A program made the translations under genes and the position numbers. Under the pieces are notes generated by a model. That model saw only the letters and a list, made by a program, of their open reading frames with translations, was not told where the DNA came from and did no database searches. DNA of 64,000 nt from Agarophyton chilense. Taxonomy: Eukaryota > Rhodophyta > Florideophyceae > Gracilariales > Gracilariaceae. Shown here piece by piece: positions 7,701-64,000 of the stretch (position 1 is the stretch's first letter; the number at the start of each line of letters is the position of its first letter). The stretch is from contig JARGXX010000132.1 of the NCBI GenBank assembly GCA_030374765.1, positions 518,501 to 582,500 of the forward strand, given 5' to 3'.

Positions 7701-7703
7701 AAA

Positions 7704-14612: not shown

Positions 14613-14642
14613 ATTGGCAGGAGGATCTGGTCCTAACTTGAT

Positions 14643-16181: not shown

Positions 16182-16321
16182 GGCAAGGTTTACTTAAAAT
16201 TGAATAAGATCTGGTTGAGTCGCGCCAGCCAGATTCGGGGGCTGAATAGTGTTCACGATTCCGTACGACGACATAGTGCTCCTGTGTGGTCCTGGTACTC
16301 TTTGACGTCAACAAAGTGCTT

Positions 16322-16620: not shown

Positions 16621-17174
16621 GTCATGCAGAATCGTTTCAACAGATAACGAGGAAATAATTTTGATGTTCGAAAGGAATCATCAACGTACTGCTTCAAAGC
16701 CTACAAAACTCCGAAAATTAGTAATTCCGCTTATGCGGCCACACAAGAAAATTATGAAGAATGGCATGCGAGACTGGGACACACTGGAGAATCAGTTTTA
16801 AAACCAATATTTTCCAAACGAACCGCTATTGGAATACCGATGAAACTAGAACCGAACACGGAAAATTCCTGTAAGGGATGTGTTCTGGGAAAAATGGTTT
16901 CAAAGCCATTTAAACCCTTTAAAGACTTTCAAGCAAAATCAAAGCTGGAATTAAATCACACAGACCTCTGTGGTCCTATGAAAACTCTGTCTAAGGGAGG
17001 GAAATTTTATTTTATCACGTTTACAGATGATTACACTCGAAAATCTTTTGTCTACTTCATGAAAACAAAAGACGAGACGGTTCAGAAGACGAAGGAATAT
17101 ATTGAAATGGCGGCTGAGAATCAAGCTGGACTTTCTGTCAAAAGAATTCGCAATTACAGAGGGGGAGAATATAT

Positions 17175-17968: not shown

Positions 17969-17971
17969 AAC

Positions 17972-17987
17972 TGGTCTCCCGACTTAG
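17972..17987 (+). other. Primer-binding site of gypsy copy B
   Basis: TGGTCTCCCGACTTAG, three bases after the 5' LTR. The first 13 bases are identical to the site of copy A. The complement ends CGGGAGACCA, which fits the 3' end of a tRNA-Tyr by analogy with yeast. Confidence 0.75.
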
Positions 17988-18065
17988 AAGGCTAGGGGCA
18001 ACTGGTTTGGTTGTTTTTCACATTGCTGTGCTGTCTTCTCTCGTCAAGATCTGCTTTTTAATTTC

Positions 18066-20258: not shown

Positions 20259-20296
20259 TTTCGGGAGTCTCTCCTTCGGGAGAGGCGTCCCCAACA

Positions 20297-25492: not shown

Positions 25493-25794
25493 AGGGTGGT
25501 CCCTGCACGAGAACTCTCGGAAAGCATTCCGACCCAAAAACTGGGAGAATTGCCCCACGGGAAGGCCTCCGGCCGAAGCCGTCGAACTGACGCTCTTCGT
25601 CATGACGCCTCGGCGGAAGCAACCCGCCAAGCGGCCAAGGCAACCCGGAACCCGGTTCGTTCCCCTACCCAGGGCATGGAAAGGCAACGCCAAACCATGG
25701 ACCCCTCGAGGGAAGGGCACAGTAGCCCACACGCACCTGCGGAAGTACACCGGTTTGGTCCGGTGACGCGTACACCGCAAGGGCGGGAAGTCTA

Positions 25795-25960
25795 CGAGAA
25801 GAATGTTCGTGGTCGACCACATAGTGGAGCACTCATACCATCCGGATGGTTATATTCAATACCTCGTCCGTTGGTAAGGTTTAGGGCCCGAATGGGATTC
25901 GGATGAGCCGATGGAACATCTCCCACGTTCGAAGGTGGTGTCATATCACCGCAAAACGCG
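25795..25960 (+). other. Chromodomain-like segment downstream of pol in copy B
   Basis: Plus-strand translation here contains GYIQYLVRW and then a segment rich in acidic residues followed by PRSKVVSYH, which fits the C-terminal half of a chromodomain (hydrophobic strand, KW or RW, acidic patch, helix). It lies about 300 bp beyond the long pol frame. Copies C and E have chromodomains in the same relative place, at the end of pol. This is a fossil part; I do not infer how it was once joined. Confidence 0.55.
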
Positions 25961-26182
25961 GACGGGAATCCCGGCATCGGTTGTTAAAGCCCAGGTGGGA
26001 TAACACCCACCTCGGTGGAAGAGAAAAGAGAAGTAGGTTTGCTTGAGAACAGGCTAGTGAAGGAAGGTTTTGGGTTACACAAGTCACTTGGTTTATATTC
26101 GAAGCTATCGATGGAATACCGAGCACTCGGGATACTACTCTAAGTCACAAGGGAAAACTCCCCATCGGGATCGCGTGCCCCG

Positions 26183-28121
26183 TCACGGGTTCGGCTCACC
26201 ACCCTCGGGTTGGTTACCTCCCTGGAGGCGGGTGATCAAGGCCTCGCGCATCGCGGCAATATCGCCACTCGCTGCGTTGGTCCCCAGCCCCACCTGTCGC
26301 AGGAACTGGGAGATCACGGCCGCTTGACCCGCCGGAGCGGAGCTCGCATCGCCTAGGGCGGACGCCACACCACTTGGGAGACTCACTGGTGGAACCGGAG
26401 GTGGTCCAGCTACCGCGTACTCCGACCCAGCCCCCGTGGGGTTATCCAAATCCACGTAGCGCGTGGCTGGCGTCCCCGCGTTATAGGGACCTTCCGCTTC
26501 GGATCCCTCGACCTCCGCCTCGGCTTACGCTTCTCCGTCGTCGGGTTCGTTGTCCACCATTGGATCGTCGCCGTCGTAGACGTGGTAAAATTCATCCGCG
26601 TCCCCGAAACCGATCGGATGCCCCTCGGGGATATGGCGTGGTGCAAACCGGAGTTCGTTCGCTTCCTCCGCCGAGATTTCGTGCCCTTCCCAAGGGTCAA
26701 AGTATACGAAATCACCTCCCAAGGGAGTACGCCTTCCTGGTGACAGGTCCTGACCCCGGCTACCCACGGTGCGCCCGCTTTGTTCAATCGGAACGGTGGT
26801 CCAGTCCAACTGGTCGATGTAATCGAGAAGACCCGCCACTTCTTCGGCGTTGGTCACTCCACCAAGTGGGATGCTCAGGTCCAGGCTGCGAATCGCGGAC
26901 CTCAACCGGAACGGGAGGAACCACAGTCTGTACTGGTCATACACCTCCCAGAGGATGAACACCGCCGCGCGGACTGCCCATTCGGTAATCACCACGGACC
27001 ACAGTCCGGACTCGGGATCCTCGATGAGCTACGAACCGTAATACGTGATGACTGGTGGCAGCTCGATGTAACAGCCCCGGCAGGCCTCGAGGTTCGACCA
27101 CCACGTTGGAATGAGGACATAGCGACCCCGTCGGTCGGCCACGCGAAGGCGTTCGATCTCCACGTTCTGATACGGGACCAAATACCCGAATCGGGATCGT
27201 GCTCGACGCTCGAAGCCGATTAGGGCGAGGAAGTTGGCCCGCGCAAGTCAACGCATGTAGCGGAATTCTGCCCGCATAATCGGTCGCGTCCAGCACATGG
27301 TCTCTTGCCGTGCTGTCGGGATGACCCTCCACGAGAGTCTTTCCAAACCCGCCAGGCGGTCGACGTAACCAATCTCACCTTGAGTGCGGAAAAGCCGAAT
27401 GTCGGTGTCGAGACCATCGGGGATGGGATATTCGAAAGGAGCCTGGCGAAGCCGTTGATGGCCAAGAAGGACGAAGGCCGCATGAGCGGAAGCCGAGGTT
27501 TCACTACCCCGGCGCGCCACAGCATGGACCGGAACCGCTACGCGGCGTCGCCAATCCAACGAAGTTGTCGCCACGGCCCAAATATCGCCCGGAAGCATCC
27601 CGTTTCCATCGGTGTACATCGCTATGCGCGCTTCGTTTTACACCGCAATCGGGTGGAACCACGGCGCAAGCCGGAGAACGGACGCATGATGCCCAGGATG
27701 GCGCGCGACAAGCATGTCGTATGGCGGCCACCCTCTCGGGAGGAACATTCCGTACGGAGCAGCAGCCGGGTTCGCGATAGGAATTAGCGGCGCAGCCGAT
27801 GACGCGCTTTGCGGGAGCGTAGCGGACCGGAAGCCGGAGAAGTACCCCGCAGGGAGACGGTTGGGTTGATTTTTTTGGGTTGCTCATCGGTGAGCGAAGA
27901 GGCCGGATGACCGGAAGAGGAGACTGGCGAAGCGAAAGATGATGCCTAGGAATCGGAGGACTGGCACGCAAGGATGCGGATTCGGTTGAGATGGAACGTT
28001 GAGAACGGTTGTTTCCAGGAGACTGGAGTTTTGCCGCACTGCGTTTGTTGGCATCGGATGAAGTGGATCCCAGCGAGCTGGTTGCACTCTTATGCATTCG
28101 TCTCGGCGCGTCGCCCACCAT
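26183..28121 (-). pseudogene. Antisense accessory coding region of gypsy copy B
   Basis: Minus-strand coding between pol and the 3' LTR. Open stretches include 27504-28121 (starting with a Ser/Arg-rich part), 27248-27619, 26525-26995 and 26183-26455. The stretch at 26.5-27.0 kb has a Trp/Tyr-rich core, then EEVAGLLDYIDQLDW, an acidic region and a helical C-terminal part. It aligns by eye with the antisense proteins of copies A and C, for instance with EEAEAHLDHVLQVE in C, although the DNA is otherwise unrelated. No named domain was recognised. A few breaks are present. Confidence 0.62.
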
Positions 28122-28144
28122 CGCGGATGTCGTACTCGCGCCTC

Positions 28145-28156
28145 AGGAGGGGGATA
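28145..28156 (+). other. Polypurine tract of gypsy copy B
   Basis: AGGAGGGGGATA lies directly against the 3' LTR. In LTR elements this tract primes second-strand DNA synthesis. A similar tract (AAGGAGGGAGATA) abuts the 3' LTR of copy C at 53050-53062. Confidence 0.75.
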
Positions 28157-28947
28157 TGTAGTGCAACCCTCGTGAGGGCCGTTTTCCAGGACTTGGTTGT
28201 TTTTCCGCCTCGGGCGATACTTGTGAGATCTATGAGTAATACCGCTACTAGCGGGCTGGCATAGCCAGGTGTACGCGCGTTGTACGCGAAGTGCACCGGC
28301 GCCGTGCGCCGTGGCCCCGATTCGGGTGTGACTTACCCACGTGTACCACGGGTGGCCCAGGACAGGTTGGCACAGCATAGCTGGATATTTCTCTATTTTT
28401 TAGCTTTATTACACTAGGTTAGGGAGCTCTTTACAGTATACTACACTATATAGTGCCAGGGCGATCTCGCCCTGACACTCAGTAAACCTCCCCAACCAGG
28501 GTTCTTGGCTCTAAGTCTTTTTCCGCTTTCGCGAGTCTTCCACACTCTACGGAGGTGAAGCCGCGTTACTAACGGTAACTTATCCACCCTGCGTCAACAG
28601 GAGACTCACCGCTGTTAGCGTATATATCTTTCATACCACTGCCGTGTTCTCGCCCCAGTATTGGGTTTGCTACATATTTCTTTTGGCTCTCGTGGCCCAT
28701 GCCCCCGATCGCCCCTACTGGGTGGTCCCCCCTTTATCACTTGCCCACTCTCGTGGAATACAGCTCATACCTGGTCTGATCCCTTCTAGCATCCTGCACT
28801 CTCCCCGCTTGGCGTGCCGGTGAACCTCGGCCTTACACCCCGACTTAGTCGTGTTCACTCCGGAGAGGCTCCATCGCCGTGCTACCCTCCTTGGAGGAAG
28901 ACTCGGACATCTTCTTGTGTTTCCGCCGCCCTTGGCGTTGCACTACA
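28157..28947 (+). repeat. 3' LTR of gypsy copy B
   Basis: 791 bp, with the same inverted ends as the 5' copy, followed by the duplication TATAT at 28948-28952. Immediately upstream is the purine tract AGGAGGGGGATA, the expected plus-strand primer. Confidence 0.95.
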
Positions 28948-30750
28948 TATATGTCTACCGAACTTCAAGAATTTTTAAAATCGAAAGGAATTGTTCATGA
29001 GCCAACAGCTGCCTACCAGCCGCAAAAAAACGGAATCTCTGAAAGACTAAACAGAACATTATGTGAAAAAGCACGTTGTATGCTTTATTATCATAATGCT
29101 TCTAAACGTTTTTGGGCTGAGGCAGTACAAACGGCAAACACAATCAGAAATATTATTTTAACAAAAATTCTAAAAGACATGAGTCCCGAAGAAAAATGGT
29201 CTGGAAGGAAGCCAAACATTTCCAACCTCAGAGTTTTTGGATGTAAGGCCTATGTTTTTATTCCGAATGAAAAGCGGACAAAATGGGATTCTTAATCAAG
29301 AATATGCACTTTTATAGGGTATGACGCAACAAACTACAGATTCATGGACAACAGTACAAAAAAGCTTATAATAAGCACAAATACACAGTTTTTGGAGCTC
29401 CCAAAAGACAATGAATTTGAAGTGAACACAGAAGAAAATAATTTTGAAGAACACCTGGAAGGAAGCACTTTAACCACAGATAATATTCAAGAACCAGAAA
29501 TTCAGAACGAGGAAAATTCGGAAACACATCAAATCGTCCCAAGACGATCCTCAAGAGCCAGAAAAACACCAGCAGGGCTGACGTACGATCATGCTGAAGA
29601 AGATGAAAATACTGCCACAGGAGCAGTTATGATGTTAACAAATGAAATGGAACCTCAATCTTTTAAAGAAGTAATAATAGCATTTGACAAAAAGTATTGG
29701 AGCACTGCAATGGTAACAGAAATGAATTCTCTAATGAAAAACAATACATGGATACTGGTACCAAAACAAACTGGAATGCGAATTCTAACGCCAAAATGGG
29801 TTTATAAAATTAAACCAAGTTCAGAAAACCAAGAAAGAACTTTTAAAGCCCGACTGGTGTGCCGTGAATTCCAAAAAAATACGAAATGGACTATTCTGAA
29901 ACATATGCACCAGTTGTGAGAATGGCTTCTCTGCGAATGATGCTCGCCCTTTCTATGCAACTTAAAATGCATATATGTCAAAGGGATGTAAAACCCGCAT
30001 TTCTGAATGGACTACTAGAAGAAAATTATACATGGAGCAAACGAAAGGATTAAAAAGTACAAAATATCTGACGCATGTTTGCAAATTGGAAAAATCTATT
30101 TATGGTTGAAAACAGGCACCAAGAGCTTGGTACAAAGTAATTAGCTCAGTCCTAGGAGAGATGGAATTCCCAAAATGCAACGCAGATAATGGGATTTATG
30201 TGGGAATTATAAATGGACATCTAACATTTATTGCTTTATACGTAGATGACTTAATCATTTCCACAGCAGACATTGGAACAATGAAGTTCGTCAAATCAAA
30301 TTAAGCTCAAAGTTTCATATGAAAGACCTTGGAAAGATCAGCCATGTTCTTGAAATCGAAGTAAAATACAATATGGAAGAAGGAAAACTGAAATTGTCTC
30401 AGAAACAATATTCGGAAACCATTTTAAAAAGATTTGGTATGGAAAACAGCAAACCCATCAGTACCCCTCTAGAAGCTAACAGGGTATTTTTTAAACCGAG
30501 AGAAATTGTGAGAGGAATGGAATCAACTCCATATCGAGAATTAATTGGATCCACCATGTACTTGATGCTTGGAACAAGACCAGACTTGGCTTATGCAGTC
30601 ACTACTCTAAGCCAATATTCTGATAATTCTTCTAATGAACATTGGTCTGCCTGCAAACGAATATTACGATACATACAGAAGAAGGCCAGTCGACGAGGAG
30701 TTGTTATTTCTGTAACTAGAAAGGCCATTTAAAGAAAAATTGCTGGAAGA

Positions 30751-33700
30751 ATCCAAGGAGCATGGCATACAGAGGGGACAAGGATAGGAAGAAGAATGGA
30801 AATCGTTCTTTTGACGAGAAGACTATAGGGAAAAATGCTTGTATCTCCTTCATTGCCTCAAATATTATAGAAAAGCAATCACATTACTTCTTGAATGAGG
30901 ACCAGTGGTACCTGGACTTTCACGCTTCAAGACACAAGGCCACTTCCTACCAGGCCTTCATTGGCGGTGTTCGATGGGCTGATAGACGGCACATATAGGT
31001 GGAAAATGGATCGAAGCGTGCTGTAAATGGTCAAGAGACATTGAATGTGAAACTTCCAGTGAAGATGAAAGAAGAATGGTGGCAGATCAGTCTGGGCGAT
31101 GTTCTGTACATACCCGAGCTGGTATGCAATCTTCTATCGGTCAGCGCTATCAAACAGAAAGGATTCTTGATAGTTTTCAGGTTCGACACTGTAGGGTGTG
31201 GAATCTGCCAAATATAAGAAGCTTTGAATGAGATGGTCGTGGCTGCTGGAGAGGAGACCGTTGATGGCTTACACGTACAAACGTTCTGTTCTGCATTCAA
31301 GTCAAATAAAAAGGATTTGATCACTTCTCCTAATGAAGTATATACGAAAAAGTGGCACCAGTGGCTAGGACATCCATGTGAGGAGCACTTGCGCAAGACT
31401 TTGTCCGACTTTGAAGTTTTTCTGAGCCAACCAGTTGAACCAGTGGGGCACTGTGAAGCATGTGTAGAAGGAAGGTCAGCGCGAGCTCCAAGGAGGTCGA
31501 TGGAGGCATTCCTACCACACAGTGACGACGTTTTGGAGCTGGTCATCTCCGACATAATGAGACCCATGATGGTGACAACCTTATCCAGAGGTCGGTACTT
31601 AGTTACTGTGTATGAAGACAAGAGATCGCTGTCTCTTCTGCGGTTCTTTAAATAGCGAAACGAGGTGCCCGGTTCAGTGAAGGAGATGCTTCCAGAGCTA
31701 GAAACACAGTCGGGCAAGCGTCTCAAGAAGTTCAGAGACGAAAACGGGGGAGAGAATCTGGTAGAATTCTTTTAGCCTTGGCTGAGGGAGAAAGGGGTCA
31801 TCTGGAAACGAACCCCACCGTACAGTCCAGAGTCAAAGGTAAAAGCTGAAAGGTTGAAAAGGAAACTGTGGGACAAGGCAAGGGCGATGTTGCGAACAAC
31901 TGTGGGAATCCCATGTCATGCGCAGCTGTAGACATAGGCCATCAACACGGCCAACTATCTACGAAATCGAACATTCTTCAAACGACGAAATGAAGCATAG
32001 ATGACACCTTACGAGTCGTTCATAAAGAAAAAGCCCAATGTGTCACGTGTGAGATTGTTTCGGTCAGTTGCACTTGTGCATGTGCCCAGAGAGAGGGGCG
32101 TAGGCAACCAAAAGTACACTTCGCGGACGATGAAAGGTATCCTAATTAGTTTTCGAGAGAGTAAACTGCTACAGGATCTATTGCCCAGAAGACAGGAGGG
32201 TGATCGTCAGTACGGATGTAGTCTTCGATGAAGACGCACCGAAATGGAAGATGACTCCTGATGTGCTGGAAGACATTTTTCTACAGCCATTTCATACCAT
32301 TGCGAAGAGTGGGAGTGGTAATGCAGTCAAGGATTACTACATTTTGATAGAACCAGGAACCCCTATTGCAAAGGCGAAGAAGAACCATGATCCCATGTCT
32401 GAAGATGAGTTGGAAGATGCAAGTGGAACGTTCATGTACGGCCAAGAGTTGGTGACCCAGTATCACAATGAGTCTCGACGGTTCTCGCGCACTAAGAAAA
32501 AACCATTGCGGTTCTCCCCTGACACACTCTTCGCCTTCTTGGTGCAGCTCATACTCAGCGTAACAGATCGATTCACGGCAACTTTTTACGGAAAAGCAGT
32601 GAGAAGGAATGAATCGCAGCAATGGAATTATGCAATGACTGAGAAAATGGCGCACATGGAGAAACGCAAAGTCTGGAAGTTGGTAGAAAGGCCAAAGGAG
32701 AGTACCGTCATTGACAATAGATGTCTCCAATTCAAGAAGACGGATGCTCAAGGCATGCCAACGTGGTACCGGGCGAGACCTGGGGTTCAGAGATTTCGCC
32801 AGAAAGGAGGAATCGACTACACAGAACTATAAGCACTTGTGAAAAAGTATAGTATCTTGAGATGGATGCTGAGCAACGTAGCGGAACGCAGCTTGGAAAT
32901 GATACATTTTGATCTTTTCATCGCCTTCCTCTGCGGCGACCTTCAAGAAGAACTGTACACGACGCAGCTGGAGGGCTTTGTTCAAAAAGGCAAGAACGAC
33001 CAAGGATATTGGCTACAAAAAGCTACATGTGGTTCGAAACAGGCGTCATATGCCTGGCGAAAGAAGTTCCAGGCTGTCATGGTAAGAATAGGATGTACGA
33101 CATCGACGAAAGACCCGGGAATGTTCTTTTATCGGCTTTTAAAGGACCTCGTTACTATCATAATGTATGTCGATGATGGATTGATAACCCGGAAAAAACA
33201 AAGATATCTTGCTACGGGTCGTGAAAAAAAAAAACTTCACTGAACCAGCCATTGAAAAGAAGCGGAAAATGTTTCTTGCAACGATTATGAAACAGAATCA
33301 GGAGAAGTAAACGGTGAAGGTTCAAAACAAACAGATGAACCAGCACCTGGCATCAGAGTTTCAGGATGAAAATCAGAAGAGGATCACTTTTTTTCTGTTG
33401 GATGCGTCAAAATTGAGTGTACTGGATGCAACAGAAGAAGGATTAGACCGCCGATATAGAGAGCTCATCGGTTCGTTAATGAAAATGGCAAATACAGTCC
33501 GCCCTGATGTAGCGTTTTCGTTAGCATATCTTGCGCGATACATGAACGGATTCTCCAAAAAGCATTGGAAAACAAGTTTTAATGTGCTTAAGTTCTTTTC
33601 ATGCACAGCAGTACTGGAAATTTTGTTCGATGGGGCACAGAAAGAGGCGATTCTCAGATACTACGATTTTGATTTTGCGAGTTACAAGAGGGACATGAAA

Positions 33701-42851: not shown

Positions 42852-43026
42852 CTCTTCAAGCCATCGTTTCCGTAGCTCCAACCTTTAGGACTACGCAGTA
42901 AACGCCAGCCCATTGCACCAAGTACTCTGGGAGTGCCGCCGTCAAGGATTCGAACCTTAGGACCCGCTCTACCACGCTACCACCGGTCGAGACCCGTACG
43001 CTGGCTTAACCCGTCATTGCGTTACA
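42852..43026 (+). repeat. LTR fragment of gypsy family A/C
   Basis: About 175 bp matching the 3' part of the LTRs at 7704-8147 and 53063-53508, from CTTCAAGCCATCG to the terminal GTTACA. It abuts the Harbinger-like fragment. It keeps the antisense tRNA-like boxes (B-box complement 42946-42956, A-box complement 42964-42974). Confidence 0.85.
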
Positions 43027-43487
43027 CTTTCGACGCAAGCGATGGAATAGGAAGTGCAGACCCTACTGGCACTCCGTCCACGTGTGTTCCATCAATGCTT
43101 TCCAGGATTCACAGTAATTTTGTCTCGCCAAAAAAGATACCGTAACAATGTACTAAATTGTCACAAAGATAACACGTCAGTCTCAAATACAATTACGTAG
43201 TTACTAAGCAATGAAGCATTAGTTATGCAAGAAGCTGATTTTCTCCCAAGTATCATCACGTAAAATTCTAAGTTCTACCAGTTCCACTCCACTTTCTTTC
43301 AACATGAGGCATATTACCCTCGAGCATGCAGCTCAAGCGGTAGATCTCCCTACCAAAAATGCGCTTGAAAAGGAAAACAAATTACAACAGTACTCCTCAA
43401 AAAAATCACCCATGATTCAGACGAAGAATCTGATTCAGCAAGTCCCATTATGACTCGTTTTATTTCCAAAATCGATCACATTTAATC
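43027..43487. other. Short spacer, nothing recognised
   Basis: AT-rich DNA between an LTR fragment and a DDE transposon remnant. No frame longer than about 40 codons with recognisable motifs. Confidence 0.4.
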
Positions 43488-44123
43488 ATGAAGATGACTT
43501 ATTTTTCTGCAAAATATTTAGACATCCTGTGGAATAGCGTGTCAAAAATTATCGAAGGAAAATGGAATAGTGGAAATGGGCGTCAATATTCGTATACGGA
43601 TGAAGATATTTTTTATGACGTTAACAAACATGCGTCATGAAGGAAAATGAGACTTTCTGTTCCAACTATGTAAGATCAAAGGGGCTACATTTGAGAGGTT
43701 GGTAATAAAAATTGGCCGCTCTGTTTGCTATTTATCATACAATAACTACGTAGATACAATCGACGGGCTTTGGACAATAAAGCGTATTTTGTGCCTCAGT
43801 TTGGGATTCAACTTTTTTAATTCTGTAGATACGAGACAGATGTTATGTTCCAACAATCTTTTCGTCCAAGTGATGGCATGGCCGAAGGAAAAAAATATTT
43901 TAGCGGCAATCATAAGCTTTATGGTCTTAAAACGGAAGTCTCTGTACTCTCAAATGGAATTGCAAGAAGAACTTCTCCATATGCTCCTGGCTCAAAAGCA
44001 GACATTGATTTATTTATATCATATTTACAGAATCACAAAACCACGTTGCAGAAGAGAGAAGATGAAGGAAATAACTATATAACGGACGCTAGAGATTTAT
44101 TAGGAAAATACCGCGATCAATGA
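43488..44123 (+). mobile_element. Decayed DDE-type DNA transposon, second copy, truncated
   Basis: Plus-strand blocks in changing frames: YLDILWNSVSKIIEGKWNSG, GATFERLVIKI, then YETDVMFQQSFRPS with the first catalytic Asp, YFSGNHKLYGLKTEVSVL and GSKADIDLF with the second. These match the minus-strand copy at 39988-40969 block for block. At least two frame changes are present, and the region carrying the third acidic residue is missing. The remnant stops about 50 bp before gypsy copy C. Confidence 0.75.
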
Positions 44124-44178
44124 AGGTCTTAATGGATTAATTAATTAACACAAACTGGCTAGAGAGAGTCCTCTGTTC

Positions 44179-44295
44179 TGTGAAGGAGCAACGATAACGG
44201 TTGAGCCCTGTAAGCCCCCGGGGTCTGAGGTATTTTACAGACGCCACGTGGACTGGCCGAGCTCAGCTGGGCTCATTTAGATTTTTTAAGACCGA
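44179..44295 (+). repeat. 5' LTR remnant of gypsy copy C
   Basis: The first part of the LTR, starting TGTGAAGGAGCAACGAT, directly after the duplication TGTTC. It matches the start of the 3' LTR at 53063. Only part of an LTR is recognisable here. Confidence 0.8.
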
Positions 44296-44371
44296 AGGAA
44301 TTAGATAGAACATTGCCGCCGGCCTGGCCGACCTTCTCTGACCCCGTCTGCGTGAGCTCTGCCCAACCCAT

Positions 44372-46070
44372 GTGGATTCCATTGTGAACAAGCGACTCGC
44401 TACGGCGATCGCTGACCATAAGAATTACCTCGGTACGCAAATCGTTCCCAAGGTCATTGCGTCTGAGCTATTCTTAAACTCCCTCATTCAGGCCGGCCAA
44501 GGAGCAGAAACCAGCCAGACAAGCAATACGGTCCCTAGGACCACTTCAAAAATTATCCATCCGGCTTCCATATGGCAACCTCCTACCGAACCCCCAATAG
44601 TGGCGGTATTACCCACCCCTCGCTGGGAGCACCATCAAAAAAATCCAATGCAAAGACAATTTAGGAGCACTAGAGAGGCTCCGCGTCTAGAAGAGAGACA
44701 GATTACCATCCCTAAAGGACATTATGAGGTACAGCGACCTCAGGGCTCCATAGGATCTGATAGAGAGATCGATCCTTTAGGCTACTATTCCGCTGGAAAG
44801 AAAAGAAGTAACCTCAGGAAAAAGAAGAAAAGAATGAGTAAAAGAAGAAACCATTCGGACACGAGTGATTCCGAATCGGCCTCGACCGAAACGAACGACT
44901 CGGAAGTGCATGAGGCTGCCGTTCGAGGCCTCAAACCACTGACATCCACACACGAACTTTTCCTTAAGGTTCTAGACTACCGGAATTACCGGCTGCCGGA
45001 CAGGTCTCCGAAATACTCTGGGTCGGTGGCTCCAAGAATAGAGTCACCAAATGAACCAAACGGATGCAACTAACCATTACGGACAAGTTCTCGCGTTCGG
45101 ATCCCATTGCTGTCCTTAGGTTTCTCAGTTTGTTCCGTACGGCCTGTGATCAGAAGGGTGTCCACGAGGGCGCCGCTCTGTACTATTTACAATTCTTCCT
45201 TACAGGACAGGCGCGTGACTGAGTTGTTTCGAATATATCTGGCACAACTGACAACGAGGATGCTCAAGACCGTTAGCTCCTCAGGTCATATTCTCAGGTT
45301 GTTCGTTACCTCTTGGAAACTTACACCATGAACTACGTTATAATGGATGCCCACCAGGAAGTAATCTTCTTTAGGCAGAGCTCCAACATGACCGAATCGG
45401 CTTTCGCCGACGACATATGGAAGAAGGCTTACGGATGTGGAAACATCTTCTCCGAGGGACGGCTCAAACGTCACTTCATCAGGAATTCCAGGTGCAACGC
45501 TGAAATATCCAGAGGACACTCAACTACATTGCGTAAACCGAGCCAAGCGCATTTGGATAGCTCCACAGAACCGGACCTGGATTTATCACTCCTATATGCC
45601 AACTCAGGAGATGTCCTCGCGGTCAGTTTCAGTTCCCCTCCGTTCGGGCCACCATCATATACCTCTAGGGAACTATAGTGACCACTAGACCACCCCCACC
45701 CAAGTATTCCCCCTTTCAGCCCCGTAACGTCGTTTTTGTTCGCGCTTTAAGGGCCTGCTTCCTCTGCCTTTCAATGGTCCAACCTTGTGACTGCACGAGG
45801 TATCTAGCTGAGGACACACGAAAGAACGTCCTAGCCTTAAGGGAGGAGAATTACCGGGTGCGGCGATTCGAAGGAATGTTTAACTGGGCACCGCAACGAG
45901 CCACAGATACCCCTGGAAGCTCAAGCTATGCCAGGCCTCCGGATACACCGATCAATGCCCCACAGGTCCACACCATTGTAGACCCCACGCACGACCCCGG
46001 AGAGGAATGTTATCCTCAGGAAGAAACGGAAACCCCATCGGAAAACTCTTAGAGGGTCGAGGCGAGGCAC
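44372..46070 (+). pseudogene. gag region of gypsy copy C (fossil)
   Basis: Plus-strand stretches show a Lys/Arg-rich segment followed by a serine/acidic run (DTSDSESASTETNDSEV near 44.86 kb) and then capsid-like helical segments (45.1-45.7 kb), all paralleled in copy A. A cysteine pair near 45.78 kb (CFLCLSMVQPCDC) may be a degenerate knuckle. A few breaks are present. Confidence 0.75.
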
Positions 46071-46186
46071 ATACTCCCTCTTTCAGCCCCTGCCTCAACC
46101 AATTGGACGGTCATGAGCCAAGGAGCTCCTCACCTCCCAACAAAAACCACATACGATGGACCACTCAGGATGAACCAGAATTGGAA

Positions 46187-49100
46187 CACAGTAACGACCC
46201 TGTCTGCATCCTCAGGAAAGAGAATTATTAAGTTCTAGTAACCGTGGGACTTCGTTCCAACAACTCTCGAGTGGCAACAGCCGTATTGGACACAGGCGCT
46301 GGTCCCACTTTGGTCCATCCTAAGCTACTTCCACTCGGTGGGCAAGATTTCGTTCAGGCAATGGAGACCCCCAGGATTAGAGAAAACCCAAGTAGACCAA
46401 TGGAAATTAAAGGGATAGTACCCCTTTACCTCCCGTTAGGGCAATTCAAAGTCCGCACGTGGTTCCTTGTATGTTCTAACTTTGGCGCTGAGTCAATCCT
46501 AGGGACCTCCTTTATCGATCGATACATTAAGGCTACTTATCCAAGCCTTAGGAAAGTCTCATTCTATCGCGCACCTTCCATCTCCATAACTGGTTCCGCC
46601 CCAGGGCCAGAAGCTAACCGCAAACGAGCGATTATCTCCGAAAACACGAAGTCCAACAAGGTTCGCTTGTCGAGGGCCATAACGATACCCGAGATGACCC
46701 AAATCACCATATTGGTCCATTCCCAGTCCTCGGACCTCTTAGCGATTCAAAAGCACCCGAAAACGGTTCTGTAGCACCCTATCTTAATGGCAAGTGGAAT
46801 AATTGACATCCGCCCCAAGAGGCCCTTCTTGGTCACAATCAGCCATTTCAGAGATAAACCCGTACGGGTACCGAAAGGTACGGTGATTGGCATCACTCTA
46901 CCTGCGCCTGTGGCCAATATGGAGGCCCAAATGGATAACTTTGCAACGCCAACTCCCGACGAAGACGTCAACTTTTGGGAGAGGACAGTCGCTATCGGTG
47001 CAGAATTCGAATCCTATAGGCCACAGGTACTTGATCTTCTTAGGGAATACCAGCAAATGTGGTCAGGTAGATTGGGAAAATTCAGAGCCACTACACACCG
47101 TATTGACTTTTACGATGATACTAGACCACAGTTCCAGCACCTATACCATACAGGCCTGAAGGGTAGGGAAATTGTGGCCGACCAGAGGGAAAAGATGCGC
47201 AAAGCTCACGTCATAGAGCCGGCGCCTCCTAACCAATGCGAATGGGCAAGTCCCCTTGTCCTCGTGGCGAAGAACAATGGCTCCGTCAGGTTCTTTGTCG
47301 CCTAAAGGAAGCTCAACGCAGTAACCAAGAGGGATTCAAACCCGATACCCTTCATGGATGACTGTCTTGATTCCTTAGGCGAAGCTGTCGTATTTACCAC
47401 ATTGGACGCTAACTCTGGATATTGGCAAATCCCTTTGGCCGAAGCTGCAAGAGCGCTGACAACCTTCACCACCCATGAACTTCTGTTCAGTTTTACTCGT
47501 ATGCACTTTGGTTTAAAGAATTCCCCAGCAACCTTCTCATGGGTAATGGACATCATACTGTCCGGAGTCGAATGGAAATTGGCCCTGGTATATTTGGATG
47601 ACGTAATAATCTTCTCACGAACCGTAAAGGACCACCTTCGCCACGTGAAGAAGGTGCTAACAATCCTACAGAACGCTGGAATAACACTGAAAATCCGCAA
47701 ATGCGCCTCCTCCCAAGACTCAGTGGACTACTTTGGTCACATCGTCCTTCCAGGAAAGCTAAAGGTAGCCACACGGACCACAAGATCGATCCTCCATGCG
47801 AAACCCCCCCGGATCCACATGGAACTACGATCCTTCGTGGGCTTGTGCAATGTTTACCGACGGTTCGTCAAAGGGTTTGCCAAGATCTCGGCCCCGCTCA
47901 ACGCAATTCTGAAGAAGGGAATACCTTCGGAGTTCGAAGCCCTTACCGACGACCAGTACGATGCATTTCAGACCCTAAACGGAAAATACTGAAGCCACCT
48001 ATACTGGCTTTTCAAAAAACCAACAGGCCCTTTGTCCTGGATACGGACGCCTCTGATGTCCAAGTGGGATGTGCACTGCTACAGGAACAGGAGTCATTGA
48101 AGGACTATAGACCTATTGGATACTGTAGCAAGACGTTCACCAGCGCGGAGCGAAACTACAGTACTACCGAAAAGGGATGTCTAGCCATCGTATGGTCCGT
48201 AATGAAACTCCGTCAATACCTCGAGGGAACAAGGTTTACCATTCGGACAGACCAGAATTCAATCCGCTGGTTACTCAATATGACCGATGCATCAAGTCCC
48301 CTCGCTCGGTCGCACCTCAGGCTGTCAGAACATGACTACGAGATAACCTATAGGCCAGGTGTAAAGCACGAAACAGCAGATGCCCTGTCGCGAATCATTA
48401 CCGACGGAACTGATGACACTCCATTGGACGACCTAGTTCCTACCGCCTTTACCGATGATGGACCTCAGGGCTATACAGAAACGGATGAACTTATGGGTAA
48501 GGTGCAATCCTAGGATCCTGAGGTAAAGGAGAACAAATTATAGCTATTGGACTGGGAGACAGTACCGCCCAATTCGACACCACTTCAGGTTAATGCCATA
48601 GCCTCGGAGAAAAAATAGCTCCTCCCAATAACTTTTGAGGAACTCCTACAGGCCCATGTTGAAGACGAGTACAGCAAGTAAATAGACCAATTGATAGGCA
48701 CCCCTGGATTCCTATTCGACTATGACCGATTTGGACTACTGTGTCGCCGCTTACCACTGGGTGGCGCACTCCAACGGATAATACCAAGTTCACTAAAGGA
48801 CACAATTCCTACACCTCGCCCATTTCCCTCGTTTGGCTGGTTACCCTGGAGGCCGACGAATGTACCAGAACCTAAGGAAGTTCTTCTACTGGCCACTAAT
48901 GGCGCAAGACCTTTGGCAAACCGCACGGACCTGTACATCGTGCGCACAAATCCGAGGGTCTCGTGCCAACCATCAGGCCAAATTGAAGCTCTTCCCCGCC
49001 GCAGGTCCAATGAAATTTGTCGGAATGCATGTACTCTGGCCTTTGCCTAAGTCGTCCCGTGGGAAACGGTTTGTTTTGGTTATAACCGATAGGTTTACCA

Positions 49101-50422
49101 AACTTACCCGAGCCCTACCCTTAGGGAAGACAACAGCCACGGATGTCGCCACGGCCTTCTTGTCCGCTGGGTATATCCATATGGTATGTCACACTACCTT
49201 CTTAAGGATAAAAGCAGCCAGTTTGCATCCAAATTCTTCTCACACGTTTGTGCGACCTTAGGTATCAAACATGGAACCACCACGGCGTACCATCCGCAAA
49301 CCAATGGGCAAGCCCAAGGCTTCAACGGTATCCGTCTAGACAGACTGGCACACTACGTAGCAGAACACCAATTGGACTGGGACGACTACGTTGAGCCACT
49401 GGTTTATGCCTACAACACGCAAGTGCACGCTTCCACGGGGACAACACCTTTTGTTTTAACGCTAACGAGATCGCCACCGCCGATAGCTGTTGACCTTCAG
49501 GAGTCCATTATTTCCCAGGACATAACTGAAAAAATGACTCCTACCTAGGCTAGGCGCTACTCGCGCCGACGCATCGACGGCATTATCCAATCATCTAGAG
49601 CTGTACTGAAGAAAGCCCAATGGCGTTACAAGGTCAATTTCGACAAGGTCGTCGGGGACACACCTACCTTGGGAAAGAAGAATTGTTTTACCTGGACCGG
49701 CCACCAAAGGACAGTTATGAACTCGAGAACACTACGAGGAAGCTCTTACATCGCTCTACGGGACCATAGAAAGTCCTACGGCCAATCAACATACCATTAA
49801 GTTACTACTTGACGTCCTACAGGACACCGTATCTATTGATCGGGTTACACGAGCCCCCAGCTCTCCCGAATCACCAAAATCCCAGTCCCCTGGTCCAACG
49901 AAATCACTGCGGTTTCCGGTCGACGCTCAAGTCCCCACACCCCCTAAAGAAGTTCCCGCAGACCCGACTAGCCCCATGGACCCGATGGCCAATGTCACTG
50001 ACGATGACCCATCTCTTCCAATCAACTCCGATTGATTCGCCCCTCTGGACCATACTCTCCTTCCGGAGAACGAAGACCAACCGGAATTGTTGATTGAGAG
50101 CATCATCTCCGCCGTTCGGGGAGTAGATGGAACTATGCGCTCTCACGTCCGTTGGTTCGGCTACACCCCTGAGCAAGACACTTGGAAAGCGCCTCAAACC
50201 ATTCCGGTTAAGTTTATTGCTCGCTATTGGTGCAAAATCGGTAGCAAGGAGCGCAGCCATCAGGAGGGGGCAACAATTGGCCCAAATACTCCGAAAACGC
50301 TTCCTGACACGACGGTTCGCCGTAGCACGACGGTTTGCCGTAGCACGACGGTTTGCCGTAGCACGATGGTTCGCTATAGCTTCCACATCAGAAAACAAAG
50401 TCAGTCGCCAGGCGACACTTGA
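46187..50422 (+). pseudogene. pol region of gypsy copy C, ending in a chromodomain (fossil)
   Basis: Protease with VLDTGAGPTLVHP near 46.29 kb; reverse transcriptase with VYLDDVIIFSRT near 47.6 kb; RNase H with DTDASDVQVG near 48.05 kb; integrase zinc-binding region with CTSCAQIRG near 48.94 kb and core with YHPQTNGQAQGFN near 49.3 kb. The C-terminal end at 50.09-50.25 kb has a chromodomain: SHVRWFGYTPEQDTWKAP, close to the consensus YLVKWKGY...TWEP. Several breaks lie across the region. Confidence 0.88.
50308..50379 (+). repeat. Four tandem 18-bp repeats in copy C
   Basis: Four units of CACGACGGTTTGCCGTAG with small variations, together 72 bp, just after the pol chromodomain and before the end of the antisense region. 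No such array was seen in copy A. Short tandem repeats are common between pol and the LTR of gypsy elements. Confidence 0.85.
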
Positions 50423-50595
50423 AACAGACCTGAGATGCTTTGAAGGTTGGGCCACGTCCCGGGGCACGCACGTTTGAGATACAGGAGCCACCTTGGGAAT
50501 GCACACGCATTACTTTATTTGACTAACCAACAGAGGTCTAACAGCCCTCGCCATGACGTCAAGGTTTGCGGAAGCGCTCCGAGCACCAACAAGAC

Positions 50596-52852
50596 TCATT
50601 GGGGCGGCGCAAGAGTAACTCCGTCGTCCTCATTGGAACCTGCAGGAGCAAACCCGGGACTAGGGTTACCCGAGGAGCCTACTCTACCACTAGGACCGGC
50701 CGAAGCAAGCCGAGCACGCTTCTTCGGCGGAGATTCACCTGAGGAACTATTTTCACCATCGGAAGCCTCCCGGTCGCTCAAATGTAGACCATATTGGGCA
50801 TCCAAGTCGGCAGTAACCCTCTGGGTTATCACTTCGGCATTCTGCTGCGATTAATTGACCATTGCGGTCTTCAGATACTGAACCTGTTGGACAACCGCGG
50901 CGTAGCGCGCCAAGCGACCGGCCCATGAGCCAGCTTCCCTCAGAACTGTCGCAATGTCCATCTAGGCTGTAATACCAACGGTACGGAAAACGTGACTTAG
51001 ATGCAAAGCTGCACCCGTGACTGAAGCGGGAAAGTGTGGCAACGGAGAGGAAGGAGCGATTTCGACGCCCTCAGTGGACGTTTGAGCCAGCGCATCACCT
51101 ACAGGAATTTAGGTTTCGACAGTAACCCCGCCAGGAGGGATGTGCACTTGGGAGACGGGCGGCTCATATCAGAGTTCATGCTGAGGAGCAGCGCTCGTAG
51201 GACCTGTAGGAGGGGAAGTGGTCGGCAACACCATAGCGGACTCTACTAGAGGATTGACGGCCTCGACTTGCAGGAGGAAGGGATCTTCCCCGAAGGATTC
51301 TCTATCGGACATAATACCTGGAACCAACGGCGTGGCTTCCACATCAGGCTCGAAGCACAGGAAATCGAAACCAATGGCCTTCGGGGAATAGTCGGGCACA
51401 TGATGCCTCGAAATGTCCGATAGTTGATTACTCAAAGGCTTGGCGGGATAGGCACGAGCGTTGTCCTGGCCTTGCGGATGTAGCGGAATCGGCGTGAATG
51501 AGTCCGTATCATGGTCATACCAAAGGAACCCGGGATTCTTGCTGCACTCGACCTGCAGAACATGATCCAAATGGGCCTCGGCCTCCTCGATGTCGAACTG
51601 GGTCCAACGGACGATATTCTGGATGGCCTGGTTCCTTAGGAATTGGATCATGATGTCCGGGAGCGGAACTGAACGACTTCGAGGACCGGGTATGTTCTCG
51701 TCGTGCCATACTCTCCAATCCTCCGAACGGACATTACCACGGACGCCGTAATACGCGGTATCCAGGAAGGCCATAAGGGACATCACTGTCGTCACCCATG
51801 AGTTGGGACGAATGGTACGCCACCACGGACGGCGTGGGAACCAAAAGGAGCGGCGAGACACGCCAGTACATGGCCATTGGTTCTCATACACACGGGGCAG
51901 CCCGAGGTATACCGGAGGACGTTTGTTGGCGCTCATCTCGTGAAACTCCAGCTGGTGCCAGCAGAAGAAGAACTCCAGGGATTGACGTACACGACCATCG
52001 GGCTCGTGCATCTCGTTCCAATAGACCCTACTGGACATCCAAAACCGGCGGTCATACGGCGGATGGAAGCACATGAGCGCCAAGAAGTTATGATCCGTCG
52101 GAGGAAATCTCACATGGGGCGAGATGAAGTTCGCATATCGCTCCGAAAGGATTTTGTTCTCCCTGAACTGGTATTCGGCTTCCTCCTCGCAGCGGACGTA
52201 CGGCATGTCCGCTTGGATGAGGTGGCGGCAGAGCGTCGCCTAACGCGGATCCACAGTACAATGCAACCATCGGTTGTACCATGAGACGCTGTGCGCGTTC
52301 TTGCTGCCCCTCCGGAAATCTGGTATCTTCGCGAACCTCCGCGCGTCTAGATACATATGACAAAACGTTTGCAATCCTTCTACAGAGGACGGAAGAATGG
52401 CATGACGCATTGCCCGCGGGTTTCGTCCGATGGTATGGTCATAGCTGTCCCAAGACGTTCGTAAGCCAATTGGTAACCCTAGGATCTCCCCGTTTGGTTG
52501 TTCGAAGCCATTGTGCCGCTGCCAACAGGCTGGTTCGCCGGGAAATGGATAGGAAAGCCGTCGGAAGCGACATAGTCTCGAGGGATAATAGCGTATCCGA
52601 CGGGCTTATAAGGAAAGTCCGCCATCGCGCGCGACCAATGGAAAAGCACAATGATCGGAAGACGAGGTGACGTAATTGACCCGAGCGAACTGACAGGCGT
52701 GAACCACGGTAGACGAAGCGCGAAGGGTTGCCCAAGGAAGAACGAAGACTAAGGAAGGTCCCAATGACCATCAGAGGAGAAGAAGACAATGGACCATCTC
52801 GGCAATGCGACGTAAGTAATACGCCGGCGGTGAACTTATGGCCGGCGCTCAC
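50596..52852 (-). pseudogene. Antisense accessory coding region of gypsy copy C
   Basis: Minus-strand coding between pol and the 3' LTR. The longest open stretch (51169-52206, about 345 residues) has a Trp/Tyr/Phe-rich N-terminal half, SEDWRVWHDENIPGPRS, then EEAEAHLDHVLQVE, HDTDSFTPIPLHPQG and an acidic, proline-rich C-terminal end. A separate stretch (50596-50832) has SDREASDGENSSSGESPPKKRARLA, of which PPKKRAR resembles a basic nuclear localisation signal. Copy A encodes the same protein and copy B a distant one. No known domain was recognised. A few breaks are present. Confidence 0.72.
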
Positions 52853-53062
52853 GGCGCCCTGGGGTTTCAGTCCTTAGGCATATTGATTGCTACTCCGCCA
52901 CTCATTGTCAGCTCACGCTTCTTCGCATTCCCGCGGGCGATAACGACGTGACGTCCGTTAACGACCATTGGTACTGAGAGCAACGAAGTGTTCGCGTTCC
53001 CTAGGTCAATCATGAGGCCACCTAGACTTCGCCGTGACAGCAAAGTCCTAAGGAGGGAGATA

Positions 53063-53508
53063 TGTGAAGGAGCAACGATGACGGATAAGCCTTGTAAGCC
53101 GCCGGGCCCTGAGGGAACTGACAGATGCCACGTTGACTGGGCGACCTCAGCAGGACTGATTTAGATTAAGAATTTATTTTAATTAGTGTAATAGACTAGC
53201 ATTACAGTTCTAAAGGGATCCCAGCGCCTCGCCAGTATTATTTACTTGGCTCGAGTGACGCTTCTCCCTTAGAGTAAGGTAGGCACGGTAAGAATACTAA
53301 ATGACCCCCTGTGGTACATTAGTTCCACCAATTGGTCTTCAAGCCATCGTTTCCGTAGGTCCAACCTGTGGGACAACGCAGTAAACGCCAGCCCATTGCA
53401 CCAAGTACTCTGGGAGTGCCGCCGTCAAGGATTCGAACCTTAGAACCCGCTCTACCACGCTAACACCGGTTGGGACCAGTACGTTGACCTACCAGTCATT
53501 GCGTTACA
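53063..53508 (+). repeat. 3' LTR of gypsy copy C
   Basis: 446 bp from TGTGAAGGAGC to GTTACA, preceded by the purine tract AAGGAGGGAGATA and followed by the duplication TGTTC. It aligns with the LTR of copy A throughout. Confidence 0.93.
53429..53457 (-). promoter_or_regulatory. Antisense tRNA-like A-box and B-box in the LTR of copy C
   Basis: On the minus strand, TGGTAGAGCGG (53447-53457) is followed by GGTTCGAATCC (53429-53439), an exact RNA polymerase III B-box, within a T-arm-like stem. In this 3' LTR the boxes point into the element, toward the antisense coding region. They are conserved at 7755-7783 and 42946-42974. Whether they drive transcription is not known. Confidence 0.5.
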
Positions 53509-53529
53509 TGTTCTCTCCCTTCACCAGGC

Positions 53530-61033: not shown

Positions 61034-63961
61034 TCAGTAAATATACATTTTGGAGGAATTATTACGTCTCCACCAGTTGCGCCTCCACCACCTACGCCTC
61101 TGCCACCACTTTGGTCTCCAGCGCTTTGGTGTCGGAGCGTGAGAAGTTGACGAGCTTGGAGATGGAGAGCTTGAGGCATGGGCCACAAGCGGCAACATCG
61201 AGGAAGACAGAGGTGGAGATGCACTTTGAGAAGCCGGGGGCTGCGGGCTCGGCGAAGCAGACAAAGACGGCGTTGTTGATACGGAAATGCTGGGTGAGGC
61301 ACTGTATGACGGAGATGGTTCTGGGGATGAACTGGGAGAGGAAATCGGGCTTTTTGCAGCCGCGTCACCCTGTACAACTGCGTGTGTTTCGGAATCAATG
61401 CTGTAAAGGAACTCTTCATCGTCGTAGATCACTGTCACTGAAGTTCCGTTTGGGTCCTGATCCATCGAGAATCGTTCCGGCTCTCCGATATGTGGGTGGA
61501 ACGCGATCCAGAAGAGCTCCTCTTGCCCGTTGTCGCTTCGGATGATAAGCCTTTCATGCCGCTTGTCGCTCGTGAACTCTTCCGTGCGGTATGATATTGA
61601 GTGTCCTGTCGATATCACGTGAATGTCGACCTGGGCAATTCCTTCATCGCTCAGAACAATGCGGCACGTGTTACCCTCGCAGCTCGATGAATCCGCGTCT
61701 ACTTGCACCAGATCACCCAACATCAGATACGATTCAAACTTGTGATTCGAAGCGCCCCCGGACACCCGGGTGGAGTCAACAACCATGAAGAATCCAGGTC
61801 CTGCAACTCCTCGGTTCAACACCACGGAGCGCACCATCCAGTCCAAGGAAACTTCGCGATAGTTGCTCTTCCAGACCCACATGCCTCTGAATCCAACATC
61901 GGGGTCCCCGTGCATGTTGAATTGATCTCGAGTGAATCCCAGATCTGCTCCGTCGTCGTCGGCGGGCCATCCAAAATCGTGTGGGTGTCCATACTCCGCC
62001 ATATCGAAGCGCTTTCCGACTAGCCTCGATGAGCCGTCCTCTTGCGTGACGGTTACAGCCGTCATTGGGGCTTTGTCAAACGGCCAGTTTCTTGCCCACT
62101 GCACGTTGTATGCGTAAGTCAAGTTGGCCGTCGCAACGACCTCTCGCCCATTGTCTTCGACTGCAACCATGGCTACGGAGGGCGCCTTCGCATCTTGAGC
62201 GAGCCCGTCGATGTGCATGAGCGAGTGCTTTCTGGAATCGATGTTCTTGTTCCACACGTGATCGTCAATCCATGCCGTTTTGAAAGCGGTAAGCGTGAAT
62301 ATACCTCGGTCCGCGTTGTCGTGCCCTGGGAATATCGCATCGGGACGCGCATCAAAGTGCACGTATATGGCGTTCTCGGCTTCACTGCCTCTGGCGATCA
62401 GCAGTCCCCGACGGGGGCTGAAGTATGAGAGCGGGAAGTGTTGCAAAAACTCCTTCTCCAATCCTTGTGGGGACTCAGCGTACGTCGATGTTCCGTGCTC
62501 CAAGCCAAGAACAGTGACGTGTAAGAGAACCTGCCCCCATTGAATGCGACAAGGGCTGTTGTTTTTGAAGTGCTTCCCCATCCTTTGCTTCCACACCATT
62601 TGCGGGAGTGCGCCGTCAGGATACGCGTACTTGAACAGGGCGGCCCATGCGGGATACGATATGCCGCCGCCCGACGAGTGACCAACAATGCGGGCGCACT
62701 GCCACGGCTCCATCATTTGGGCCACGTTGTGGATGAGGCCGCGAAAGCGATCGGTGTCCATGACGCGAAGCCCTCGGCGTTCAGCGGCCACGAGCGCCAG
62801 CGATCCTTCGCGAAGCGCGATGAAGTACGTGTAGGCGTCCTCGAACGTCACCCCATCGGGATACACAGCGTGGGTCATGTATGCTTCGATGAGGGCGGTA
62901 AAGCGGTGGTTGAGTCCGCTGTTGAAGCCTGTGTCGCCACTCGACGACATCACGGAGCTCGCATATGCGTCGAAGTTGGTCTCGCCCTCAAGGACCAGAT
63001 TTGTAATGTAGAGGTGGCCATGATACAAGGCCCAGTTGCTGAAGATGCGGTGAGGGTGCTGGGCGGCGTTGGGAGATTTTCGGGAGCTTTGGAGAGCAGT
63101 TCCCCACGACGTCTGTTTGTACATGAGCAGCGCTAGGGCGCTGAGCACAATTCGTTGTTCGTCGCTGGAGAACCGATCGTACAAAACATCGAGGGTGAGT
63201 GCCAATGAGGACCCGGCGGAAAACCAGTCATTGGACACTTCGAACCACCGATCTTCGTCCCACAGAAAAGCTCGTTGGGCTCCGTCTCCATTTGGGCACT
63301 TCCCGGCGCAGTTGACAGCGCGATGGGCGAGGAGCACTTTTGCCCATGCAACAGACGCCTTCACGCAGTCGTCAACTGTGGTGGTCATGAATGACTCTCT
63401 TTCACCCCGTTCCTGAACAACGTTCTCGTTCACGCTGGCCCACACCGCGCAAATGAAGAAGCTCTGATGATAACCCTCGGACATGTTCATGATATGGTTT
63501 GCAAGCGGGTGCAATGCATCGAGCTCTTGCTGCGAAGAAGAGGAAAGATCCTCATCTCCTGTGTAGAGTGTAGTTTCGCCGTTGCGTTCCATGTGAGCCA
63601 GTGTGTTTATAACGGGATTCGAGTCGGCGAGGTGGCGAGATGCTCGACGGTTGAAAAACGACCAGGAAGTGGGCAGGTCGAATGTACCGGCGTTGGAATA
63701 ACGCTCCAAAAGCTGGAGCCATCCGTGGTCGTCAAAAAGAATGCGAGGGTGAATACCCGGTTTGAAAGCAGCTGCCGGTGCAGGAGTGACAGCAGCTTTA
63801 CCAAACAAAGAAGCATGAGGCGCAGACTTCATGAAGGTGGCGACCCTATTCGGATTTTGTATAAAAGTGTCTGATTCTTCCAGAGATACATGAGCGGAAA
63901 GAACGATAACGAGAAGAGCGGAAAGAGAGGCAGTGACAGTGAATAAGCGGAGGGGAGACAT
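61034..63961 (-). CDS. Secreted heparinase II/III-like protein with Ser/Pro linker and Trp/Arg-rich tail
   Basis: 975 residues in one uninterrupted frame from an ATG at 63961. Residues 1-25 form a signal peptide. From about residue 70 (HPRILFDDHGW) to 480 there is a helical region like the alpha/alpha toroid of heparinase II/III and alginate-lyase families, with FSNWALYHGHLY near 305 and YPDGVTFEDAYTYF near 370, which recall their NW and DG...EG..Y motifs. Residues 500-850 look like the C-terminal beta-sandwich, with PGHDNADRGIFTL near 545 and SRKHSLMHIDG near 582. A linker of Ser-Pro repeats (about 870-935) leads to a tail rich in Trp and Arg (945-967). Polysaccharide cleavage or binding outside the cell is inferred; catalytic residues are not assigned. 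The tail could bind anionic polysaccharide. Confidence 0.78.
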   Translation of the reverse strand: MSPLRLFTVTASLSALLVIVLSAHVSLEESDTFIQNPNRVATFMKSAPHASLFGKAAVTPAPAAAFKPGIHPRILFDDHGWLQLLERYSNAGTFDLPTSWSFFNRRASRHLADSNPVINTLAHMERNGETTLYTGDEDLSSSSQQELDALHPLANHIMNMSEGYHQSFFICAVWASVNENVVQERGERESFMTTTVDDCVKASVAWAKVLLAHRAVNCAGKCPNGDGAQRAFLWDEDRWFEVSNDWFSAGSSLALTLDVLYDRFSSDEQRIVLSALALLMYKQTSWGTALQSSRKSPNAAQHPHRIFSNWALYHGHLYITNLVLEGETNFDAYASSVMSSSGDTGFNSGLNHRFTALIEAYMTHAVYPDGVTFEDAYTYFIALREGSLALVAAERRGLRVMDTDRFRGLIHNVAQMMEPWQCARIVGHSSGGGISYPAWAALFKYAYPDGALPQMVWKQRMGKHFKNNSPCRIQWGQVLLHVTVLGLEHGTSTYAESPQGLEKEFLQHFPLSYFSPRRGLLIARGSEAENAIYVHFDARPDAIFPGHDNADRGIFTLTAFKTAWIDDHVWNKNIDSRKHSLMHIDGLAQDAKAPSVAMVAVEDNGREVVATANLTYAYNVQWARNWPFDKAPMTAVTVTQEDGSSRLVGKRFDMAEYGHPHDFGWPADDDGADLGFTRDQFNMHGDPDVGFRGMWVWKSNYREVSLDWMVRSVVLNRGVAGPGFFMVVDSTRVSGGASNHKFESYLMLGDLVQVDADSSSCEGNTCRIVLSDEGIAQVDIHVISTGHSISYRTEEFTSDKRHERLIIRSDNGQEELFWIAFHPHIGEPERFSMDQDPNGTSVTVIYDDEEFLYSIDSETHAVVQGDAAAKSPISSPSSSPEPSPSYSASPSISVSTTPSLSASPSPQPPASQSASPPLSSSMLPLVAHASSSPSPSSSTSHAPTPKRWRPKWWQRRRWWRRNWWRRNNSSKMYIY

Positions 63962-64000
63962 TTGTTAGGGCAAAAGTTAGTAGAGTAGTAGTGAAAGTAA

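Follow-up and report, generated by a model that had tools for sequence, protein, structure and literature searches.

The Ty3/gypsy family represented here by elements A and C very probably once carried, antisense to gag-pol, a gene for a protein that was under selection; the gene lay tail-to-tail with pol and before the 3' LTR. The two copies lie in a 64,000-nucleotide stretch of Agarophyton chilense DNA (the window), which appears eukaryotic and contains many LTR elements. The dN/dS ratio, the distribution of stop codons, a permutation test and codon usage together indicate a real gene on the antisense strand, under selection of about the same strength as most of pol. A third element, B, has a candidate counterpart at the same place.

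Elements of the window and extent of the antisense frame

Elements A and C belong to one family and both show RVT_1 matches (Table 1). Element B has the pol domain order RVT_1, RT_RNaseH, Integrase_H2C2, rve, which places it in Ty3/gypsy (Metaviridae), and the best PDB matches of its RT piece are an RT/RNase H structure (4ol8) and Ty3 Gag-Pol (7q5b). Of 791 sites compared between its two LTRs, 22 differ, and the sequence TATAT is common to both flanks. By piece, B pol is 33-46% identical to that of A and C, mostly 35-39% (about 37%), and B gag is 31% identical to that of A. The last pol frame of C carries a weak Chromo match; two pieces of B gave no Chromo match, and a stretch of B past 25492 resembles a chromodomain tail by eye and also appears broken.

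Table 1 Coordinates of the elements and antisense frames in the window
Feature	Positions	Strand	Remarks
Element A, same family as C	1-8147	-	5' LTR 7700-8147; cut by the window start
Element B	17175-28947	+	LTRs 17175-17968 and 28157-28947
Element C, Ty3/gypsy	44179-53512	+	5' LTR truncated (44179 to about 44300); 3' LTR 53063-53512
pol ORF of B	20222-25492	+	1756 codons, no internal stop
Weak Chromo match in the last pol frame of C	50138-50230	+	E 0.0065, 16.8 bits (Pfam cut-off 25.1)
Antisense accessory gene of C, supported part	50596-52242	-	Frame from 52239 to TGA 50598-50596; 548 codons including 5 stops
Possible N-terminal part of the C gene	52243-52873	-	Open stretches 52240-52605 and 52439-52873 in two frames; no comparison support
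Basic NLS-like block ESPPKKRA of C	50713-50736	-	Near the C-terminus; NLS reading by eye
Antisense accessory gene of A	2-1640	+ (A on minus strand)	5' end cut by the window edge
Candidate antisense gene of B	26183-27619	-	Same place and strand; 3 internal stops

Several further features of the window were noted. The 5' end of C is permuted (42853-44300): the 3' part of an LTR is followed by about 1.2 kb of other DNA and then by the beginning of an LTR that continues into gag, and the remainder of the gag-side LTR and the leader are absent. The last pol frame of C contains an 18-base tandem repeat (3.7 copies, 50308-50374). A primer-binding-like TGGTCTCCCGACT adjoins the 5' LTR and, by eye, is apparently common to A (7680-7700) and B (17969-17990). 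The LTR of the A/C family can be read by eye as containing a tRNA-like block antisense to the element, with an A-box-like TAGCGTGGTAGAGCGGG near a B-box-like GGTTCGAATCC. The block is well kept in three copies (53336-53512, 42860-43020 and 7700-7850), with one B-box base different in A; an Rfam search of two of the three copies gave no tRNA match. In the 3' LTR of C it appears by eye to be oriented toward the antisense gene. Element D (11310-16623) is a compact gypsy element in which the LTR pieces are 91-94% alike; it has three long ORFs, and its Chromo match exceeds the cut-off. No room is left for an antisense gene at that place, because the last ORF of D reaches the LTR. Two ORFs (29296-29919 and 32146-32832) match the copia-type RVT_2 and SH3_retrovirus domains, with scores near or under the cut-off. 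A minus-strand ORF of 976 aa (61034-63964), with a hydrophobic start and a Ser/Pro-rich tail, gave no Pfam or PDB match and a single weak NCBIfam match far under the cut-off; it is possibly a host gene.

In C, the antisense frame is bounded upstream by a stop at 52242-52240 and contains an open stretch of 356 aa (51169-52239, minus strand), with in-frame stops at 51171, 51111, 50964 and 50853 before the terminal TGA. In C, the stop of the final open frame of pol is at 50422 and that of the antisense gene at 50596, so that the two are tail-to-tail. The location between pol and the 3' LTR is seen in C; the 3' LTR of A falls outside the window. An open frame opposite to gag-pol and between pol and the 3' LTR is what the term aORF-3R describes. 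In A, the longest open stretch is 330 aa (380-1372, plus strand), and stops occur at 203, 377 and 1370 and then from 1514 onward, where the frame is shifted. In both elements the longest antisense ORF exceeds that in 500 of 500 dinucleotide shuffles. The first-pass annotation had reported a coding region in both copies and a protein that reads alike in A (plus strand) and C (minus strand), and both statements agree with our analysis; the block HDTDSFTPIPLHP, for example, is common to the two frames. The copies diverge by 16-20% in the antisense region, are in different frames across about 91 bases (C 51783-51873), and the frame of the tail is shifted by a one-base gap at C 50826.

The ends of the gene are less well defined. 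The A copy had been delimited at 1-1737, of which 2-1640 is retained: A is collinear with C only to about 1640, and it lacks 869 bases that C has (49784-50652). Because this segment is missing, A 1648-1734 corresponds instead to the reverse of the integrase at 49777-49691, which it matches. The 3' end of the A gene is missing along with these 869 bases. For C, the span 50596-52852 had been given, with its lower bound at the terminal TGA, and comparison supports its larger part, 50596-52242. The remainder, 52243-52852, has no counterpart in A, since the window begins there, and the three frames of C 52200-53060 show no similarity to the first 300 residues of the B frame (z 0.0 to 1.3); for these two reasons the N-terminus of the C gene is unproven. 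A scan of 52200-53512 with a bacterial promoter model, which is uninformative for a eukaryote, found no bacterial-type promoter.

Selection and codon usage in the antisense frame

Selection was compared over 528 aligned codons (C 50653-52243 against A), that is, between two copies, both decayed. The dN/dS ratio of the antisense frame is 0.60 (bootstrap 0.45-0.75). The own-frame ratios of four pol pieces are 0.56, 0.38, 0.37 and 0.47, and for a fifth pol piece (48682-49165) the ratio is about 1 whichever of the three sense frames is used. By this measure, which rests on two copies, the antisense frame at 0.60 is conserved comparably to four of the five pol pieces (0.37-0.56). The antisense frame contains five stops in C and two in A, and the other five frames contain 12-23 each.

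Because the simple dN/dS method ignores mutation bias, we used a permutation null, in which the observed substitutions were moved 1000 times among positions with the same base and CpG state. The antisense frame has 68 synonymous codons, compared with 50.5 after permutation (p 0.003), and two stops in A, compared with 11.2 (0/1000). Its amino-acid identity (p 0.002) and BLOSUM score (0/1000) depart from the null as well. Four of the other frames gave no p below 0.05; the fifth, the sense frame that shares third positions with the antisense frame, is considered below. Applied to pol and gag, the same test gives a clear signal in RT and RNase H; for protease-RT and the second integrase piece the signal is partial. 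Neither gag 45040-45665 nor the first integrase piece shows a signal in any of three frames, and gag 44343-45040 shows a weak signal in one frame. The claim that the frame once coded is thus upheld by the ratio, the scarcity of stops and permutation p values of 0.003 or less. A ratio near one, or equal conservation of all frames, had been named as the outcome that would speak against coding, and neither is found in the two copies.

A codon-usage test of strand was trained on six other open frames of the window and gave positive values for all six when each was left out in turn. The log-likelihood favors the antisense strand in A (+30.9, 12 to 51) and in C (+25.2, 4 to 46). Third-position counts over the antisense region are weak (chi-squares of 0.3-4.3 by counting window).

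A candidate counterpart in element B and alternative explanations

The antisense frame of A and the candidate frame of B align over 333 residues, 88 of them identical, without a frameshift. The pair has a z score of 12.6, the highest of 36 frame pairs, and the runner-up (3.8) is in an unrelated register. When the proline-rich tail is removed, z is 10.8 with BLOSUM45, 10.0 with BLOSUM62 and 5.0 with PAM250. Blastp of A against the B frame gives E 4e-7 (BLOSUM62) and 1.7e-5 (BLOSUM45), and in a set of 258 six-frame chunks B is the top match after A and C with two of the three gap settings.

Other comparisons do not reproduce this match. The signal is gone at gap cost 15/2 with BLOSUM62. For C against B, the best z in 36 frame pairs is 3.1, with -1.4 to 1.2 under other settings. 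Tblastn for a B counterpart finds nothing at 1e-3, and hmmsearch with A plus C has no match in the B frame up to E 5 and two in another frame (3.8 and 4). With phmmer, the A query reaches the B frame at E 0.52, the C query has no B match, and the B query lists neither A nor C; hhalign against B gives P 0.013 and a probability of 3.4%. A and C differ at 94 sites; of these, B agrees with A at 25 and with C at 3, compared with 36 and 34 of 149 in pol. The rate at which B matches is equal where A and C agree and where they differ (49/182 and 25/94), whereas in pol it is 170/392 where A and C agree. An overfitted alignment would give such an asymmetry, as would a gene that decayed mainly in C. In addition, the longest antisense ORF of B is not unusual against shuffles (p 0.15), and codon usage leaves the strand of B undecided, with another register scoring slightly higher.

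Since the pol genes are related and the position is identical, the antisense genes of A/C and B are likely to share descent, as judged from sequence. This homology is likely rather than proven, because C, the profile searches and strict gap costs fail to reproduce the A-B match. The B antisense frame has three stops, compared with 0.66 expected from the LTR age (p 0.03), and B pol has none, compared with 2.2 expected (p 0.11). If the B frame is homologous, this pattern would agree with a gene not needed in cis, or with one supplied in trans. The gag and pol ORFs of B are open and its candidate antisense frame is interrupted by three stops; therefore, the antisense gene may be accessory rather than essential, an argument that is valid only if the B frame is homologous.

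The least probable alternative is that the antisense frame is the shadow of a sense gene, for example an env-like one, in the frame that shares its third positions. That sense frame has a dN/dS of 0.62 and permutation p values of 0.041, 0.047, 0.013 and 0.055, and in B the sense open stretch is the longer (240 aa compared with 212 aa) and codon usage does not choose a strand (+6.2, interval -12 to 26). However, the sense frame contains 19 stops in C and 17 in A, against the few of the antisense frame; the stop and BLOSUM permutation statistics are stronger for the antisense frame; and codon usage in A and C favors the antisense strand. The A-B comparison points the same way: the corresponding sense pair has a z of 1.6, far below the antisense pair, and the exact mirror pair has -0.3. 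In pol, likewise, the true pair (z 135) scores above the third-position-sharing pair (52), and the frames opposite to this conserved gene also score (z 61).

It is also very unlikely that the region works as an RNA, with an antisense transcript pairing with the 3' genomic RNA and controlling it and with the ORF incidental. The geometry makes an antisense transcript complementary to the sense 3' end, and the available text of a review discusses pairing of this kind for plant elements (PMC7264820), but an RNA role alone does not explain selection on amino acids; such a role could be additional. Recent capture of the gene by the A/C family from the host or from another element, as a mere hitch-hiker, is unlikely, though less so than the other two. 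In favor of capture, the libraries searched leave the protein an orphan, and no certain homologue shows a long history in elements. Against capture, the selection signal spans 16-20% divergence between A and C and resembles that of pol, and B probably has a relative at the same place. We therefore retain a protein-coding antisense gene as the preferred reading.

The predicted product and comparison with known antisense genes

Read by eye, the N-terminal half of the product is rich in aromatic residues, a further stretch is rich in proline and acidic residues, and the end is basic and NLS-like. The ESPPKKRA block is also present in A, in a shifted frame, and is not seen in B. When nine frame translations covering the three regions were searched against Pfam, two weak matches were the only result (E 0.15 and 0.21; the same pair at 0.051 and 0.075 in another search), and PF04195 had no match in these translations at E up to 10. 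No match was found for three antisense pieces in NCBIfam and PHROGs, or up to E 1 in a PDB search with a profile of A2. Two AlphaFold models, from alignments of three or six rows, are poor (mean pLDDT 37.8 and 42.2) and unusable. In collections of contigs, the antisense core of C had no pattern match among viral contigs; the A antisense ORF had 19 pattern matches among genome contigs, none confirmed, and no plasmid match; and B pol had 4 among viral contigs and 9 among genome contigs, none confirmed. Absence from these searches says little, as the collections are prokaryote, virus or plasmid.

We tentatively suggest that the gene would be transcribed from its own predicted promoter, located either in the LTR or in the stretch of up to 0.8 kb that separates the gene start from the 3' LTR, and would yield a protein of about 550 residues or more. 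From its position, the motif read by eye and analogy, the product is probably a regulatory accessory protein of the nucleus, which would regulate the element through its transcription, RNA export or integration, a role of the kind suggested for the Grande/Retand antisense proteins and HBZ. An antisense transcript and a nuclear protein are the predictions that follow.

More broadly, it is quite possible, if somewhat short of probable, that an old, putatively chromodomain-type gypsy lineage outside plant Tat has its own antisense regulatory gene, unrelated to TRP28 and predating the split between A/C and B. If so, antisense accessory genes would have arisen at this site more than once, since the gene would have been present before elements with pol about 37% identical diverged, and they would represent a general regulatory solution shared with HTLV. 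An additional case, with an orphan protein whose conservation resembles that of pol, suggests that regulators were gained at this site repeatedly.

The first-pass annotation had named Grande/Retand and HBZ as precedents and knew of none for elements of this type. The latter remark holds only in part, and the list of precedents is longer: the available text of a review places antisense ORFs between pol and the 3' LTR in Grande, RIRE2, PvRetro13 and the fungal Boty, and describes the function of the plant and fungal genes as unknown (PMC7264820). Chromodomain gypsy elements outside the chromoviruses are described in oomycetes (Chronos, PMC5348765) and in Ectocarpus (PMC12477816), and in the parts of these two reports at hand no antisense gene is seen in them; Ectocarpus also has a DNA transposon, Sola1-1, with an opposite-strand accessory gene (PMC12477816). 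In a literature search that covered few subscription papers, seen in part, we noticed no antisense gene in a chromodomain gypsy element.

As judged by sequence, the A/C gene adds to a known positional kind and shows no detectable relationship with PF04195. In Retand, the TRP28 ORF (PF04195) occupies the same place and strand, and according to the excerpted report the domain is found in the antisense ORFs of 97% of Retand clusters, for which a regulatory role is proposed (PMC11963269). Retand is described as a non-chromovirus, whereas a weak chromodomain match is seen at the end of pol in C. Grande gene23 and the RIRE2 aORF, of maize and rice Ty3/gypsy elements, are likened to the A/C gene by position, strand and description, not by sequence: they are antisense, lie between pol and the 3' LTR and occur in most copies, and the Grande gene, with a promoter of its own, has a nuclear product, in the review text available (PMC7264820). 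Boty of Botrytis, a fungal LTR element, offers a non-plant antisense aORF between pol and the 3' LTR, likened by its description in that text (PMC7264820). HBZ of the retrovirus HTLV-1, also likened by description, is an antisense retroelement gene with a nuclear product (PMC11963269, in part), and its antisense promoter lies in the 3' LTR (PMC7264820, in part).
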